Below, piece by piece: positions 3,515-22,580 of a stretch of DNA of 64,000 bases. The DNA comes from Propionibacteriaceae bacterium. Its GTDB lineage: Bacteria; Actinomycetota; Actinomycetes; Propionibacteriales; Propionibacteriaceae. The notes beneath the pieces are model-generated. The model made no database searches, was not told the origin of the DNA, and saw only the letters and a list, made by a program, of their open reading frames with translations. Each line of letters begins with the position of its first letter. Within the stretch, counting starts at the first letter, position 1. A program made the position numbers and the translations under genes. Location of the stretch: assembly GCA_027492675.1 (NCBI GenBank), contig JAPUEI010000075.1, positions 59,583-123,582 of the forward strand, read 5' to 3'.

Positions 3515-3979
3515 GTGCCGACGGGAGTGCGACTCGCACTCGACCTCGGCAACGCGAGGATCGGGGTGGCTGCCTGCGATCGTGAGGGGCTGCTCGCGTA
3601 CCCCGTCACGACGCTCGCCGCCAAGCCCGAGCCGCTCGCGGCCATCCGGGCGTTGGTTGACGAGTACGAGCCGGTCGCGGTCATCGTCGGGCTCCCGCGC
3701 GACCTCGCGGGGCGTGACGGGATCGCCGCCCAGGCCGTACGCGTCCGGGCGGTCGGGATCGCGGGCGCCGTGGACGTGCCCGTCTTCCTCGCTGACGAGC
3801 GGTTGACCACCGCCGCTGCCGCCGGGAGGCTCCGCGCTGCGGGCCGCAACGCCCGAACTGGGCGCTCCGTGATCGACCAGGCGGCTGCAGTGGCTATCTT
3901 GGAGGGCGTTCTGGACGCTGAACGCGCCGGCCGGGCGACGTTCGAGAGGGTGCCTCGCGCCCATGAGGAGGACACGTGA
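3515..3979 (+). CDS. ruvX: Holliday junction resolvase-like RuvX (YqgF)
   Basis: The 154-aa protein has the RNase H-like fold of the YqgF/RuvX family, which acts in the cytosol on Holliday junctions or in 16S rRNA processing. Visible family features are the first strand LALDLGNARIGVA with its catalytic Asp, the IVGLPRDLAG segment and the DERLTT motif. GTG at 3515 follows GGGGAGGA, and the gene begins 11 nt after alaS. Its last codon overlaps the GTG of mltG by 4 nt. The alaS-ruvX-mltG order is widely conserved in Actinobacteria. Confidence 0.93.
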   Translation: MPTGVRLALDLGNARIGVAACDREGLLAYPVTTLAAKPEPLAAIRALVDEYEPVAVIVGLPRDLAGRDGIAAQAVRVRAVGIAGAVDVPVFLADERLTTAAAAGRLRAAGRNARTGRSVIDQAAAVAILEGVLDAERAGRATFERVPRAHEEDT

Positions 3980-5109
3980 GCGACCTGTTCGACGAGAACG
4001 GCAAGGTCGACCGCTCGGAGGTCGGGCGGCGCGTCAAGAGCGGGCTCGCAGTGGTCCTTGCCCTGGCCGTCCTGGTGGGTGGCGGGTGGTTCGCGGCCAG
4101 CAAGGGCTACGCGAAGTACCTCGACTGGCGCCAGACCGACGACTACATCGGAGCGGGCCAGAACGACATCCAGGTCACGATCCCCGCCGGCGCGAGCATC
4201 TCGGAGATGGGCAACGTGCTCGTCAAGGCCGACGTCGTGCGCTCCACGAAGGCGTTCAAGAACGCCGCCGCGAAGGAGCCCAAGTCGACGTCGATCCAGC
4301 CGGGCACGTACAAGCTGAAGACCCACCTGCCAGCTTCGACCGCGGTCTCGATGCTCATCGACCCGACGCACAACAAGGTCGTCAAGCGGGTCGTGGTTCG
4401 TGAAGGGCTGAGGATCACCGCGGCTGTCCCGATCCTCGCCAAGGGCACGGGACTGACGGAAGACCAGTTCAACGCCGTGCTCAAGGACCCCAGCAAGCTC
4501 GGGCTGCCGGCCTACGCGGCCAACAACCCCGAGGGCTTCCTGTTCCCTGACAGCTACGAGATCGCCGACGCACCGGACGCCGCCACCATGCTCAAGGCGA
4601 TGGTCGCGGAGTACTCCTCCGTGGCTGGCACGCTGAGCCTCGAGAGCCGCGCGGCGGCGCTGGGTCTGACCCCGCTGCAGGTGGTCACGGTCGCGAGCCT
4701 CATCGAGGCCGAGGTGAACCGCGCCGAGGACCGTCCCAAGGTCGCCCGGGCGATCTACAACCGCCTTCAGGGCAAGACCGAGAACGGCCAGGTCATGCGG
4801 CTGCAGTTGGACTCGACGGTGATCTACGCCAACAACCTCGACGGCAAGCTCACCACGACCGATGAGCAGCGGGCGCTGAAGTCGCCGTACAACACGTACG
4901 TCGTCGACGGGCTGCCACCGGGTCCGATCAACTCGCCCGGCAAGGCGTCACTCGAGGCGGCGCTGAACCCCGCCGACGGCGACATGATCTATTGGGTGGT
5001 CGTCAATCCCGAGACTGGCGAGACGAAGTTCGCCTCCACGCTCGCCGACCACCAGGCGAACGTCAAGGAGTTCCAGGCCTGGTGCGCGGCGAACAAGGGC
5101 AAGTGCTGA
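3976..5109 (+). CDS. mltG: Endolytic murein transglycosylase MltG
   Basis: Membrane-anchored lytic transglycosylase that cleaves nascent glycan strands and is thought to set glycan chain length. The 377-aa protein has a short cytosolic N-terminus, a membrane segment (about residues 24-45, LAVVLALAVLVGGGWF) and an extracytoplasmic YceG domain. The catalytic Glu is in the SLIEAEV motif, followed by LQLDSTVIYA and the GLPPGPINSPG loop, and the FASTLADHQ motif lies near the C-terminus. GTG at 3976 overlaps the ruvX stop, and its own stop lies inside the start region of aroE. Confidence 0.95.
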   Translation: MSDLFDENGKVDRSEVGRRVKSGLAVVLALAVLVGGGWFAASKGYAKYLDWRQTDDYIGAGQNDIQVTIPAGASISEMGNVLVKADVVRSTKAFKNAAAKEPKSTSIQPGTYKLKTHLPASTAVSMLIDPTHNKVVKRVVVREGLRITAAVPILAKGTGLTEDQFNAVLKDPSKLGLPAYAANNPEGFLFPDSYEIADAPDAATMLKAMVAEYSSVAGTLSLESRAAALGLTPLQVVTVASLIEAEVNRAEDRPKVARAIYNRLQGKTENGQVMRLQLDSTVIYANNLDGKLTTTDEQRALKSPYNTYVVDGLPPGPINSPGKASLEAALNPADGDMIYWVVVNPETGETKFASTLADHQANVKEFQAWCAANKGKC

Positions 5110-18983: not shown

Positions 18984-19012
18984 CCCGCCGTCCGGACGCC
19001 GCCGATGCGTGA
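18980..19012 (+). CDS. Possible leaderless leader peptide
   Basis: A TATCCT box (18968-18973) sits six nt before ATG at 18980, the spacing seen at other leaderless starts here. This ATG opens a 10-codon frame (MTRRPDAADA) whose TGA lies just past the ATG at 19005 of the next gene. It overlaps the hrpA stop. The arrangement would couple translation of the downstream gene to that of the peptide. It could also be chance; no peptide-specific signal is visible. Confidence 0.3.
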   Translation: MTRRPDAADA

Positions 19013-19601
19013 CCACCATCGCCCGGCGAACCCTGGGTCCGCCTGGTTCGAGGGGATCCCGGACGGGCTCGCCCCGGACCAACGCCGTGACGTCGCCGAC
19101 AGGACGGCGACCATCCTCGTGCGTGGCGCGCGTCTGACCGGTGACAGCGAGCTGGCCGAGCGCGTCGTGCACCTGGCTGAGTCCGAGGGGCTGGAGACGA
19201 TGGCCGAGATGTGGGCCGCCGCGCCGGCCGACTCCTTGGCCGGGTCGCTGTGGCGTCTGTACGTGCTGCGGGCCTGGATCTACGCCGACGGGAAGCGCGC
19301 AGCCGGGGCGTACGAAGCGGGACAGCGCACCGCGCACGCCGCCCAGGTGATCGCCGGCGTGCCCGACCCGTCCGGTCCGGAGCAGCTCTGTGCGGTGATC
19401 GACGACGTGCTGCGGGGGATCGTCCACGGCGAGTACGCCGACGTGCTGTGGCGAGCGGCTGCGGTGCTGCATGTGCTCGCGGCAGGACGCGCGCTGGAAC
19501 AGCCCAAGGCCTCGTCCGTACGCGAGGCCGCGCGCATGATCACCCTGGCGGAACAGCTGGAGCAGGCGGGCCACCTGGAGCTGGCGGGCCGACTCGCCTG
19601 A
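19005..19601 (+). CDS. Conserved hypothetical protein (198 aa)
   Basis: I do not recognise the family with certainty. The 198-aa product is soluble and nearly all helical, with alanine-rich helices (for example GSLWRLYVLRAWIYADGKRA and VLWRAAAVLHVLAAGRAL) and no cysteine-rich or catalytic-looking motif. It has the actinobacterial GC bias expected of a real gene and follows hrpA by 21 nt. ATG at 19005 overlaps the stop of a 10-codon frame that has its own -10 box. The next plus-strand gene is separated by a candidate RNA gene. Confidence 0.65.
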   Translation: MRDHHRPANPGSAWFEGIPDGLAPDQRRDVADRTATILVRGARLTGDSELAERVVHLAESEGLETMAEMWAAAPADSLAGSLWRLYVLRAWIYADGKRAAGAYEAGQRTAHAAQVIAGVPDPSGPEQLCAVIDDVLRGIVHGEYADVLWRAAAVLHVLAAGRALEQPKASSVREAARMITLAEQLEQAGHLELAGRLA

Positions 19602-19638
19602 CCAACGCGGTTGGTTCCTCGCCCGTCGCCCCTAGACT
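19601..19638 (+). promoter_or_regulatory. Promoter of the 19646 RNA with palindromic operator
   Basis: TTGGTT (19611-19616) and TAGACT (19633-19638) form -35 and -10 boxes with a 16-nt spacer, placing the start of transcription at about 19645-19646. A perfect inverted repeat, ACCAAC-GCG-GTTGGT (19601-19615), covers the -35 box and looks like a repressor site. No start codon lies near the predicted +1, so this promoter does not serve a leaderless protein gene. Confidence 0.6.
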
Positions 19639-19645
19639 TGCCCGC

Positions 19646-19732
19646 GGTACGCCGGGTCGTGGATGCCCCGGGCTCCAACTTCAGCCGCTACGAGCGGCCC
19701 CGCGCCGTGAGGCGCTCCCGGCCCGGCGTACC
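19646..19732 (+). ncRNA. Putative structured small RNA, cloverleaf-like
   Basis: An 87-nt segment begins where the upstream promoter predicts +1. Its ends pair perfectly over 11 bp (19646-19656 with 19722-19732), with three further inner pairs, one of them wobble. Inside are three hairpins: GGA/TCC plus GCC/GGC (19661-19676, one bulged base), GCCGC-TACGA-GCGGC (19684-19698) and GCGCC-GTGA-GGCGC (19702-19715, GNRA loop). The result is a four-way junction. It is not a tRNA (no T-loop, closing stem too long) and lacks the marks of SRP RNA, 6C RNA or the riboswitch classes I know. It may act in trans or as a leader of the PAC2 gene 62 nt downstream. Confidence 0.55.
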
Positions 19733-19794
19733 TCTTCCATCAGGATTCTGAGTACGGGCGCCAGCCCTTGTGTGCAGGCCATACCCTCGCTCCT

Positions 19795-20682
19795 GTGAAG
19801 GATCCACGAGAGCTCTACGAAGTGGTCCCGGAGACGTGGCAGCAGGTGCAGGGCGCCGCAGCGCCCATGCTGCACCTCCTCGACGGCTTCCTCGACGCCG
19901 GTCGCGTCACCCGGGGAGTCGCAGACCACCTGTTGCGCACCTGCCATCCCGAGCGGTTGGCCACCTTCGACGTGGACGCCGTCCACGACTACCGCAGCCG
20001 TCGTCCGGTGATGACCTTCGACACCTACCGCTGGGTCGCGATCCAGCCGCCCGTGATCGCGATCGACCGCCTCACGGATGCGACGGGCCGGGCCTTCCTC
20101 CTCATGCACGGCCAGGAGCCGGACTCCCAGTGGGAGCGGATGATCCAGGCCACGTTGACGATCTGCTCCGAGGTGGGCGCAGGCCGCCTGTACACCGTCA
20201 CCGGCATCCCGCTCGCCGTTCCGCACACGCGCCCGACGGGCATCACCCGGCATGCGACCGACGAAGCGCTGGTGCACGACAACCCGCCACTGATCGAACG
20301 GATGGACGTGCCGGGCCAGTGGTCGGCGCTCCTCCAGCTGCGCGCCGGTGAGGCTGGCCGGGTGGCTATGGGCTACGTCGCCCACGTGCCGCACTACCTC
20401 TCGCAGGTCTTCTTCCCGCAGTCGGTGAAGGCGGTGCTCCAGGCCTTCATGGACGACACCGGTCTGGTGATCCCGCTCACCGGTCTGGACGACGAGATCG
20501 CCGAGAGCCTGTCGCTGATCAACTCCGAGGTCGCGGGGTCTCCCGAGACCGGCGAGCTGGTGTCCGCCTTGGAGGATGCCTTCGACACGGCACACGAGCG
20601 GCTGGCGCCCGTACCGACCGCAGACGAGATCGCCGCCGAGTTCGAGAAGTTCCTGCAGGAGCGGGAACAGGACCAGCCCTGA
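19795..20682 (+). CDS. PAC2 family protein
   Basis: The 295-aa protein belongs to the PAC2 family, whose actinobacterial members (one lies near sigB in Mycobacterium) have no settled role but share the fold of proteasome-assembly chaperone 2. Visible features are the LLDGFLDAG segment, the VATFD/DYRSRRP region and the GIPLAVPHTRP segment. GTG at 19795 is preceded by TACCCT (19782-19787) with a 7-nt gap, so the mRNA is probably leaderless. Earlier in-frame starts at 19768 add residues without support. tesB follows after one base. Confidence 0.83.
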   Translation: MKDPRELYEVVPETWQQVQGAAAPMLHLLDGFLDAGRVTRGVADHLLRTCHPERLATFDVDAVHDYRSRRPVMTFDTYRWVAIQPPVIAIDRLTDATGRAFLLMHGQEPDSQWERMIQATLTICSEVGAGRLYTVTGIPLAVPHTRPTGITRHATDEALVHDNPPLIERMDVPGQWSALLQLRAGEAGRVAMGYVAHVPHYLSQVFFPQSVKAVLQAFMDDTGLVIPLTGLDDEIAESLSLINSEVAGSPETGELVSALEDAFDTAHERLAPVPTADEIAAEFEKFLQEREQDQP

Positions 20683-21572: not shown

Positions 21573-22526
21573 TCAGGCGGCGAGCTCGCCGCTGCGTAGC
21601 TTGGCGATCGCGTGACGCTCGATCTGTCGGACACGCTCTGCCGTGATGCCCCACACCTCGCCGATGTCGGCGAGCTTGGCCTGACGTCCGTCGAGGAGCC
21701 CGTACCGGCGCCGTACGACGTCGGCCGACCGCTCGTCGAGCCGGGAGAGCATCTGTTCCAGGCGGGCGCGCTCCTCGGCGTCGAGCACGACCTCGTCGGG
21801 ACCGGGAGCCGCCTCGCGGGCGATCAGGTCACCGAGCGCGGTGTCCCCGTCCTCCTCGATCGGCGCATCGAGCGAGACGTGGTCGCGGGAGAACTGGATC
21901 AGCTCGACGACCTTCTCCTCGAGGATGCCCAGTTCCTCGGCGATCTCGCGGAGCTCCGGGTCGCGGCCGAACCTTCGCTCGAGGGTGCGGCGGACGGCTG
22001 AGACCTGGTTGATCTGCTCGGCGACGTGGACGGGGAGCCTCACGATGCGACCCTGCTGGGCGATGCCGCGGCTGATGGACTGCCGGACCCACCACGTCGC
22101 GTACGTCGAGAACTTGAAGCCCTTGGTGTAGTCGAACTTCTCGACGGCGCGGATGAGTCCGGTGTTGCCTTCTTGGACGAGGTCCAGCAACGGCATCGCG
22201 GAACGTCCGTACTTGCGGGCGACGGAGACGACCAGGCGGAGGTTGGCGGTGACGAACCTCGTCATGGCCTCCTCGCCGATCCGGGCGAGCTCCTCGAGCT
22301 CGGCCGTCGTCGCCTTCACGGCACCTACGCCGCGGTCGTCATCGGTGATCTCGCCGTCCAGGAGAGCCTGTGCGTACAGTCCGGCTTCGATCTGCCGAGC
22401 AAGTTCGACCTCCTCCTCGGCGTTCAGCAGCGCGGTCTTCGCGATGCCGTCGAGGTACAGGCCGACTGCGTCCTTGCCGTCGATGCCGTCCGTGGTCCGG
22501 GTCCTGCGGGCGGTAGTCACTGCCAT
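21573..22526 (-). CDS. sigB: RNA polymerase sigma factor, SigB/HrdD type
   Basis: Group 2 sigma-70 factor of 317 aa that lacks the long acidic N-terminus of the principal factor. Regions seen in order: 1.2 (DAVGLYLDGIAKTALL), 2 ([51 protein letters not shown]), 3, and 4.2 (GITAERVRQIERHAIAKLR). ATG at 22526 is chosen because GAAAGGA lies just upstream; the earlier start at 22553 has none. The upstream sequence resembles an ECF-type promoter, which would fit stress induction as for mycobacterial sigB. It shares a terminator with tesB. Confidence 0.88.
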   Translation of the reverse strand: MAVTTARRTRTTDGIDGKDAVGLYLDGIAKTALLNAEEEVELARQIEAGLYAQALLDGEITDDDRGVGAVKATTAELEELARIGEEAMTRFVTANLRLVVSVARKYGRSAMPLLDLVQEGNTGLIRAVEKFDYTKGFKFSTYATWWVRQSISRGIAQQGRIVRLPVHVAEQINQVSAVRRTLERRFGRDPELREIAEELGILEEKVVELIQFSRDHVSLDAPIEEDGDTALGDLIAREAAPGPDEVVLDAEERARLEQMLSRLDERSADVVRRRYGLLDGRQAKLADIGEVWGITAERVRQIERHAIAKLRSGELAA

Positions 22527-22552
22527 GAGGAATCCTTTCGTCGTCACCATCA

Positions 22553-22580
22553 CAACGCGTGATTACCCCGAAAGGTTTCC
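22553..22580 (-). promoter_or_regulatory. Possible ECF-type promoter of the sigB-like gene
   Basis: On the minus strand GGAAAC (22580-22575) is followed after 18 nt by GTTG (22556-22553), close to the GGAAT/C-N18-GTT pattern used by SigR/SigH-type factors. It lies about 27 nt upstream of the start codon at 22526, leaving room for the visible ribosome-binding site. Confidence 0.4.

Follow-up and report, generated by a model that had tools for sequence, protein, structure and literature searches.

The 64,000-nucleotide stretch of DNA analyzed here (the window) very likely contains a stand-alone gene for a structured small RNA, the local member of an RNA family that extends across its class of actinobacteria, although its transcription is inferred. 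The gene is 87 bases long and intergenic. Its support at the level of sequence consists of conserved stems (P1, P2, P3), a segment resembling CCCCGGGYYYCA that does not vary, a conserved start site with a conserved promoter, and a genomic placement separate from other genes. That this is a real conserved noncoding RNA we regard as very likely. The features discussed below are as follows.

19646..19732, + strand: structured noncoding RNA gene, form A (fold z score, homologues, covariance-model matches and covariation)
19646..19659, + strand: 5′ arm of the terminal stem P1 (fold; changes on both sides at 13 of 14 pairs in 81 sequences)
19719..19732, + strand: 3′ arm of P1 (fold and covariation)
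19660..19677, + strand: first inner hairpin, predicted from the minimum free energy only; pairing unproven, without double-sided compensation
19684..19698, + strand: hairpin P2, GCCGC-UACGA-GCGGC (98.6% of cells paired; C-G to U-A swap)
19702..19715, + strand: hairpin P3, GCGCC-GUGA-GGCGC, with a GNRA loop (92.3% of cells paired; outermost pair covaries)
19611..19616, + strand: −35-like element TTGGTT (similar T-rich −35 in congeners L002, L003, L005 and L006)
19633..19638, + strand: −10-like element TAGACT (TANNNT recurs at this offset in many of the 145 loci)
19005..19601, + strand: gene for a co-inherited, all-helical protein of 198 amino acids (no family match; near the RNA in 80 of 144 loci; co-occurrence in 47 of 47 protein-bearing genomes of the family)

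Direct reading of the sequence gives a P1 core of 11 perfect base pairs (19646-19656 with 19722-19732), and over its full extent the stem reaches 14 bp (19646-19659 with 19719-19732), one G-U pair among them. The minimum free energy (MFE) structure is a four-way junction with inner hairpins at 19660-19677, 19684-19698 and 19702-19715. At −56.8 kcal/mol, the window copy folds with a z score of −4.55, and only 1 of 200 dinucleotide shuffles was as stable; the opposite strand likewise folds well (z = −3.5). An earlier, sequence-only reading had described an 87-nt segment with ends pairing perfectly for 11 bp and three hairpins, one with a GNRA loop, and this description held, with the stem extended as above. 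The near-invariant segment CCCCGGG(C/U)(U/C)CCA occupies 19666-19677, inside the predicted first inner hairpin. A scan of the window detected no intrinsic terminator 3′ of position 19732.

The sequence is conserved among relatives. BLASTN found matches in 26 of the 38 genomes of a sample of relatives, own genome counted, with 80 to 93% identity across the RNA, and in these matches the flanks did not align outside the genus. Within 20 close sequences, 7 of 11 P1 pairs had changed on both sides. Across 81 diverse sequences, 84.9% of cells were paired, compared with 76.6% after shuffling, and 190 double-sided changes were counted against 78.5 in shuffled data, a number that none of 500 shuffles reached. 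This shuffle control ignores relatedness, and more weight thus falls on slid pairing registers, which gave at most 92 double-sided changes. Most of the covariation falls in P1. P2 contributes one strongly covarying pair (C-G to U-A in 20 of the 81 sequences), its remaining pairs being near-invariant, and P3 shows double changes at one pair. The first inner hairpin yielded no double-sided compensating change among the 81 sequences, so the four-way junction, claimed at the outset, is only predicted for that arm and held only in part. Twenty-one positions are invariant across the 81 sequences, more in our judgment than would be expected of an antisense seed. The CCCCGGG segment and a GNRA-capped P3 are present in the window copy and in nearly all 81 representatives, whose P3 loop is almost always GNRA (GUGA, GAGA, GCGA, GACA). 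The window copy thus meets the criterion for the family, a P1-P2-P3 fold with compensating changes.

The sequence upstream of the RNA resembles a sigma-70-type promoter. TTGGTT and TAGACT are separated by 16 nt, and position 19646, 8 nt beyond the −10 element, is the predicted transcription start and the first base of the outer stem; the start is inferred, as no transcript was measured. Taken alone, this promoter is weak, matching 7 of 12 consensus bases and being missed by a strict promoter scan. Its −10 element is in register among congeners (CCTACACT, CCTAGACT and CATACACT), and across 145 loci the occurrence of TANNNT is maximal at the position of the window −10; this conservation of position makes the promoter credible. 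The promoter and start proposed in the sequence-only reading therefore held as sequence, weak by consensus and backed by conservation.

Many relatives carry a different type of promoter. The Streptomyces SigR consensus is GGAAT-N18-GTT (PMC2375139; PMC9205884) and that of Mycobacterium tuberculosis SigH is GGAAYR-N17-18-GTT (PMC4803200). The motif GGAAY-N17-19-GTT was present at 59 of 145 unique loci, compared with a mean of 0.4 and a maximum of 3 in base-shuffled upstream regions, and it mostly ends 1 to 7 nt before the first base of the model. A two-box sigma-70-like match was found at 24 of the 145 loci (3.0 in shuffles, at most 9), and many of the remaining loci have TANNNT alone, clustered at the same position. 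Reading of the sequence before the window copy showed no GGAAY-N17-19-GTT motif, which places this copy in the sigma-70-type group. These counts were not split by form, and an automatic split between forms A and B was crude. From these sequences we infer that many relatives place the RNA behind a thiol-stress SigR/SigH promoter, with form A usually behind a sigma-70-type promoter; that the SigR/SigH-type sites are actually used is likewise an inference.

The RNA family is widespread within the class. A covariance model built from 20 sequences (R1), applied at full model length and E ≤ 0.001, matched 161 of 297 sampled genomes of the class, the weakest matches, near 1e-3, being uncertain. In a sample of the phylum, covariance-model searches gave no credible match outside the same class; one out-of-class match (G537) was discarded. 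A broader model (R2) matched 59 of 118 genomes of the host's family, two of them falsely: the matches in G373 and G397, near E = 1e-4, lay inside an apparent isocitrate dehydrogenase gene and were discarded. At loci L227 and L228, spurious R2 matches with E near 1e-4 lie within such a gene, and about 1e-6 is a safer threshold for this model. Carriers identified by a DNA pattern scan include Nocardioides, Kribbella, Micropruina, Propioniciclava, Cellulomonas, Microbacterium, Nocardia, Rhodococcus, Gordonia and Mycolicibacterium. Conservation of the RNA extends from Propionibacteriaceae to Mycolicibacterium; membership of Streptomyces is only probable.

Three forms, labeled by eye, could be distinguished, all sharing CCCCGGG and P3. 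Form A, to which the window copy belongs, is marked by GGNAGCCCCGGGYYCCA or a sequence close to it. Form B is characterized by CAUGNCCCCCGGGCYYCA or something similar, mostly with a SigR/SigH promoter. Form C is about 118 nt long, replaces P2 with a much longer hairpin and has a SigR/SigH-like promoter in most copies; several copies are followed by a terminator-like hairpin. Copies of form C come from probable Streptomyces (L219, L220) and from the family of the host (L221-L226), and the form would merit a covariance model of its own. Forms A and B reside together in three genomes (G217, G235 and G319) of the family that contains Nocardioides. Tandem copies were observed at L071 (2885-2979 and 3067-3161), each with its own SigR/SigH-type promoter, and around 3917-4033 at L143. 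The RNA is present in a single copy in its own genome, where further weak matches (L214-L216) lack the fold and were rejected as a second copy; a mobile repeat was thereby ruled out. Only two plasmid matches were found, both partial and from Rhodococcus, and a plasmid-borne origin was rejected. Two records named "Bacteriophage sp.," from human feces, carry the RNA beside a gene for the 198-amino-acid protein (L236, MT835541.1, 6001-6081; L237, MT838127.1, 5001-5077). L236 additionally encodes transporter-like and other housekeeping-type proteins. With their homologue of this protein, both records look like mislabeled actinobacterial chromosome, and a phage origin was rejected.

The RNA lies between the frame for the 198-amino-acid protein (19005-19601), whose stop codon it follows by 44 nt, and a PAC2-family gene with a GTG start at 19795, before which it ends by about 60 nt; an HrpA helicase gene lies upstream of both the RNA and the 198-amino-acid frame. 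The upstream protein has no match in Pfam or NCBIfam and no sequence match in the PDB. Its AlphaFold model is all-helical (pLDDT 85.2, pTM 0.80), without a fold match (best E = 1.3) or a visible RNA-binding motif. A tblastn-confirmed scan of contigs returned no matches to the protein, and a profile search found it to be widespread. A homologue occurs near the RNA at 80 of 144 loci, mostly as its immediate upstream neighbor in the same orientation; at several loci (L065, L106, L113, L161, L061) the gene is divergent, convergent or kilobases away. Within the class sample, the RNA accompanies the protein in 89 of the 90 genomes that encode it (the exception is G042), compared with 72 of 207 genomes without the protein. 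In the family sample, the RNA is present in each of the 47 genomes that encode the protein; a further 12 genomes are RNA-positive, with form B or C only, or false matches (G395 was judged by scores, without reading the sequence). RNA and protein are jointly present or jointly absent in genera g6, g8, g15, g138 and g142. Genome incompleteness and shared ancestry weaken these statistics; we argue that the rearranged loci retaining both genes speak for a functional tie. SigR-type lineages (probable Streptomyces, Mycobacterium and Nocardia) lack the protein, which therefore cannot be a universal partner.

Several neighboring genes, named by eye, are recorded here as observations. At L067, L082, L083, L084 and L236, a Pit-like phosphate-transporter gene lies just 3′ of the RNA, preceded at several of these loci by a PhoU-like (DUF47-type) gene. 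At the Mycobacterium-like loci L051, L052 and L053, a conserved acyl-CoA-carboxylase-like gene runs convergently toward the RNA, which at L051 and L052 is downstream of a WhiB-like gene. In the window, a gene for a primary-like (group 2) sigma factor (21573-22553, − strand) lies about 1.8 kb from the RNA; no such gene was found near other copies within the stretches compared.

The RNA matches no known class that we compared. Rfam 15 gave no match at the gathering threshold in the 64-kb window, no match in 19550-19850 even at E ≤ 10, and no match to the RNA at loci of forms A, B and C from other lineages; ARAGORN found no tRNA or tmRNA in the window. A literature text search with the conserved core sequences found no paper. 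The sequence-only reading, which saw a small RNA that has a promoter of its own and cannot be matched to signal recognition particle (SRP) RNA, tmRNA, 6C RNA, tRNA or a known riboswitch, is thus supported (transcription again being inferred), and it withstood those of its proposed refutations that could be run: the stems are conserved with compensating changes, and a repeat or MITE is ruled out by the single copy. Its assignment of the host to Nocardioidaceae failed, the host probably being one of the Propionibacteriaceae, and it overlooked the partner gene upstream, the spread across the class and the presence of SigR/SigH-type promoters in relatives.

The closest candidate for a described relative is scr2952, whose expression was confirmed in Streptomyces coelicolor (Vockenhuber et al. 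2011, cited in PMC8388888). In probable Streptomyces, members of the family (L057, L058, L060) lie between genes for a HelD-like helicase and malic enzyme, with an HU-type protein also in the neighborhood (all named by eye). We take these neighbors to be the SCO2952-SCO2951-SCO2950 region, which is the place implied by the name scr2952, and SCO2952 is a HelD homologue (PMC10719064). However, scr2952 is stated to be in Rfam (PMC8388888), yet Rfam 15 is silent at the probable Streptomyces loci. Whether the Streptomyces relative is scr2952 could go either way, as the identification rests on neighboring genes without a sequence comparison. The literature accessible to us, which excluded the original paper, describes no function or class-wide family for scr2952. 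Should scr2952 prove to be this RNA, expression of one family member is already established, and the family, its fold, class-wide spread, two promoter types and partner gene would still be new.

Other systems are more distant. 6C RNA is also a small, stand-alone actinobacterial RNA with C-rich unpaired stretches, but it consists of two stem-loops with runs of C (PMC8388888), and its Rfam model does not match the present family; 6C RNA is not known to have a closing stem. Ms1 RNA (MTS2823, scr3559) is likewise an Actinobacteria-wide small RNA, found through structure rather than sequence (PMC9130861), but its length is about 230 nt or more and its fold 6S-like, whereas our family is 87 to 118 nt long with a closed multihairpin junction and lies at other loci; this contrast rests on length and predicted fold against the description in PMC9130861. 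Bacterial Y RNA (YrlA, RF02553) resembles the family in its length of about 100 nt, its stem-paired ends and its role as a protein-bound scaffold, protein binding being only a proposal for our RNA, but the family has neither a YrlA match nor a tRNA-like module. Many copies share with the SigR/SigH regulon the GGAAY-N17-19-GTT motif at the start site, although that regulon is known mainly for protein genes and the window copy has a sigma-70-type promoter.

Our best overall explanation, which we consider likely although the function is unknown and this remains a guess, is that the RNA serves stress and housekeeping roles in trans, working in a complex with protein. Action in trans, itself inferred, is likely; that the RNA works through a bound protein falls a little short of being the better bet. 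The RNA would be transcribed from a start at about 19646, and the junction closed by P1 would act as a scaffold on which the invariant segment and the GNRA hairpin P3 are displayed to a protein partner. The promoter would set the dose, constitutively by sigma-70 in the window copy and by thiol-stress SigR/SigH in many relatives. In form-A genomes the co-inherited helical protein of 198 amino acids would be the leading candidate, and it is possible, in the absence of interaction data, that it is the bound partner. A universal partner would have to exist in lineages without it, and we infer that the dedicated protein of form-A lineages would be additional to that partner. This need for another partner favors a trans-acting ribonucleoprotein RNA with an extra form-A protein.

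The most serious rival, and a possible one, is a trans-acting antisense RNA in which the CCCCGGGYYYCA segment, C-rich and in part single-stranded, base-pairs with ribosome-binding sites rich in G, the stems being merely protective. The invariant C-rich segment is indeed like the C-rich loops of actinobacterial small RNAs such as 6C RNA (PMC8388888), and the gene stands alone with its own promoter. However, a search of seven congeners for exact 14-nt complements of the CCCCGGG segment returned nothing but the RNA gene, and sites with one mismatch are scattered and no commoner than the control (shorter or imperfect pairing fell outside this test). Class-wide conservation of the entire core also goes beyond what a seed requires. 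We favor a protein-recognized scaffold over an antisense seed because the core is near-invariant across the class, differences in P2 length are tolerated, the GNRA loop is retained and spacing elsewhere is loose.

A cis-acting element, either the 3′ untranslated region of the upstream gene or a leader of the PAC2 gene, would agree with the close spacing on both sides and with the broad upstream synteny. It is unlikely, since PAC2 follows the RNA only within the genus and in two others, the upstream gene is reoriented or displaced at the five rearranged loci, the RNA has its own start site, and SigR-type copies lack the upstream gene altogether. A small protein-coding gene is very unlikely. The window has a frame, GTG-DAPGSNFSRYERPRAVRRS..., that is partly open in relatives, and some open frame exists in 142 of 145 copies, as expected at about 75% G+C; against this stand the compensating stem changes, indels of a length not divisible by three in the linker between CCCCGGG and P2 (43 of 144 copies), interruption of every frame by stops (22 to 93 of 145 copies) and a start codon that is not conserved. 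A chance GC-rich fold or a dispersed repeat can be all but excluded: GC-rich DNA folds readily, as the opposite strand illustrates, but neither accounts for the single genomic copy, the conservation, the covariation and the position of the promoter.

A bolder version of the protein-bound reading, possible only as a joint claim, is that some actinobacterial lineages have the RNA and the 198-amino-acid protein as an obligate ribonucleoprotein and that other lineages have rewired the RNA core to the SigR/SigH thiol-stress response with a different partner. Class-wide structured RNAs are rare, and 6S, SRP, RNase P, tmRNA and Ms1 each perform a basic function. The present RNA is absent from Rfam, conserved class-wide, and tied in many lineages to what is apparently the main thiol-stress sigma factor. 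Together with its co-inherited gene of unknown fold, this spread makes its function testable in ordinary laboratory actinobacteria. If the bolder reading is true, the family would be an actinobacteria-wide class of stress RNA without a known counterpart.
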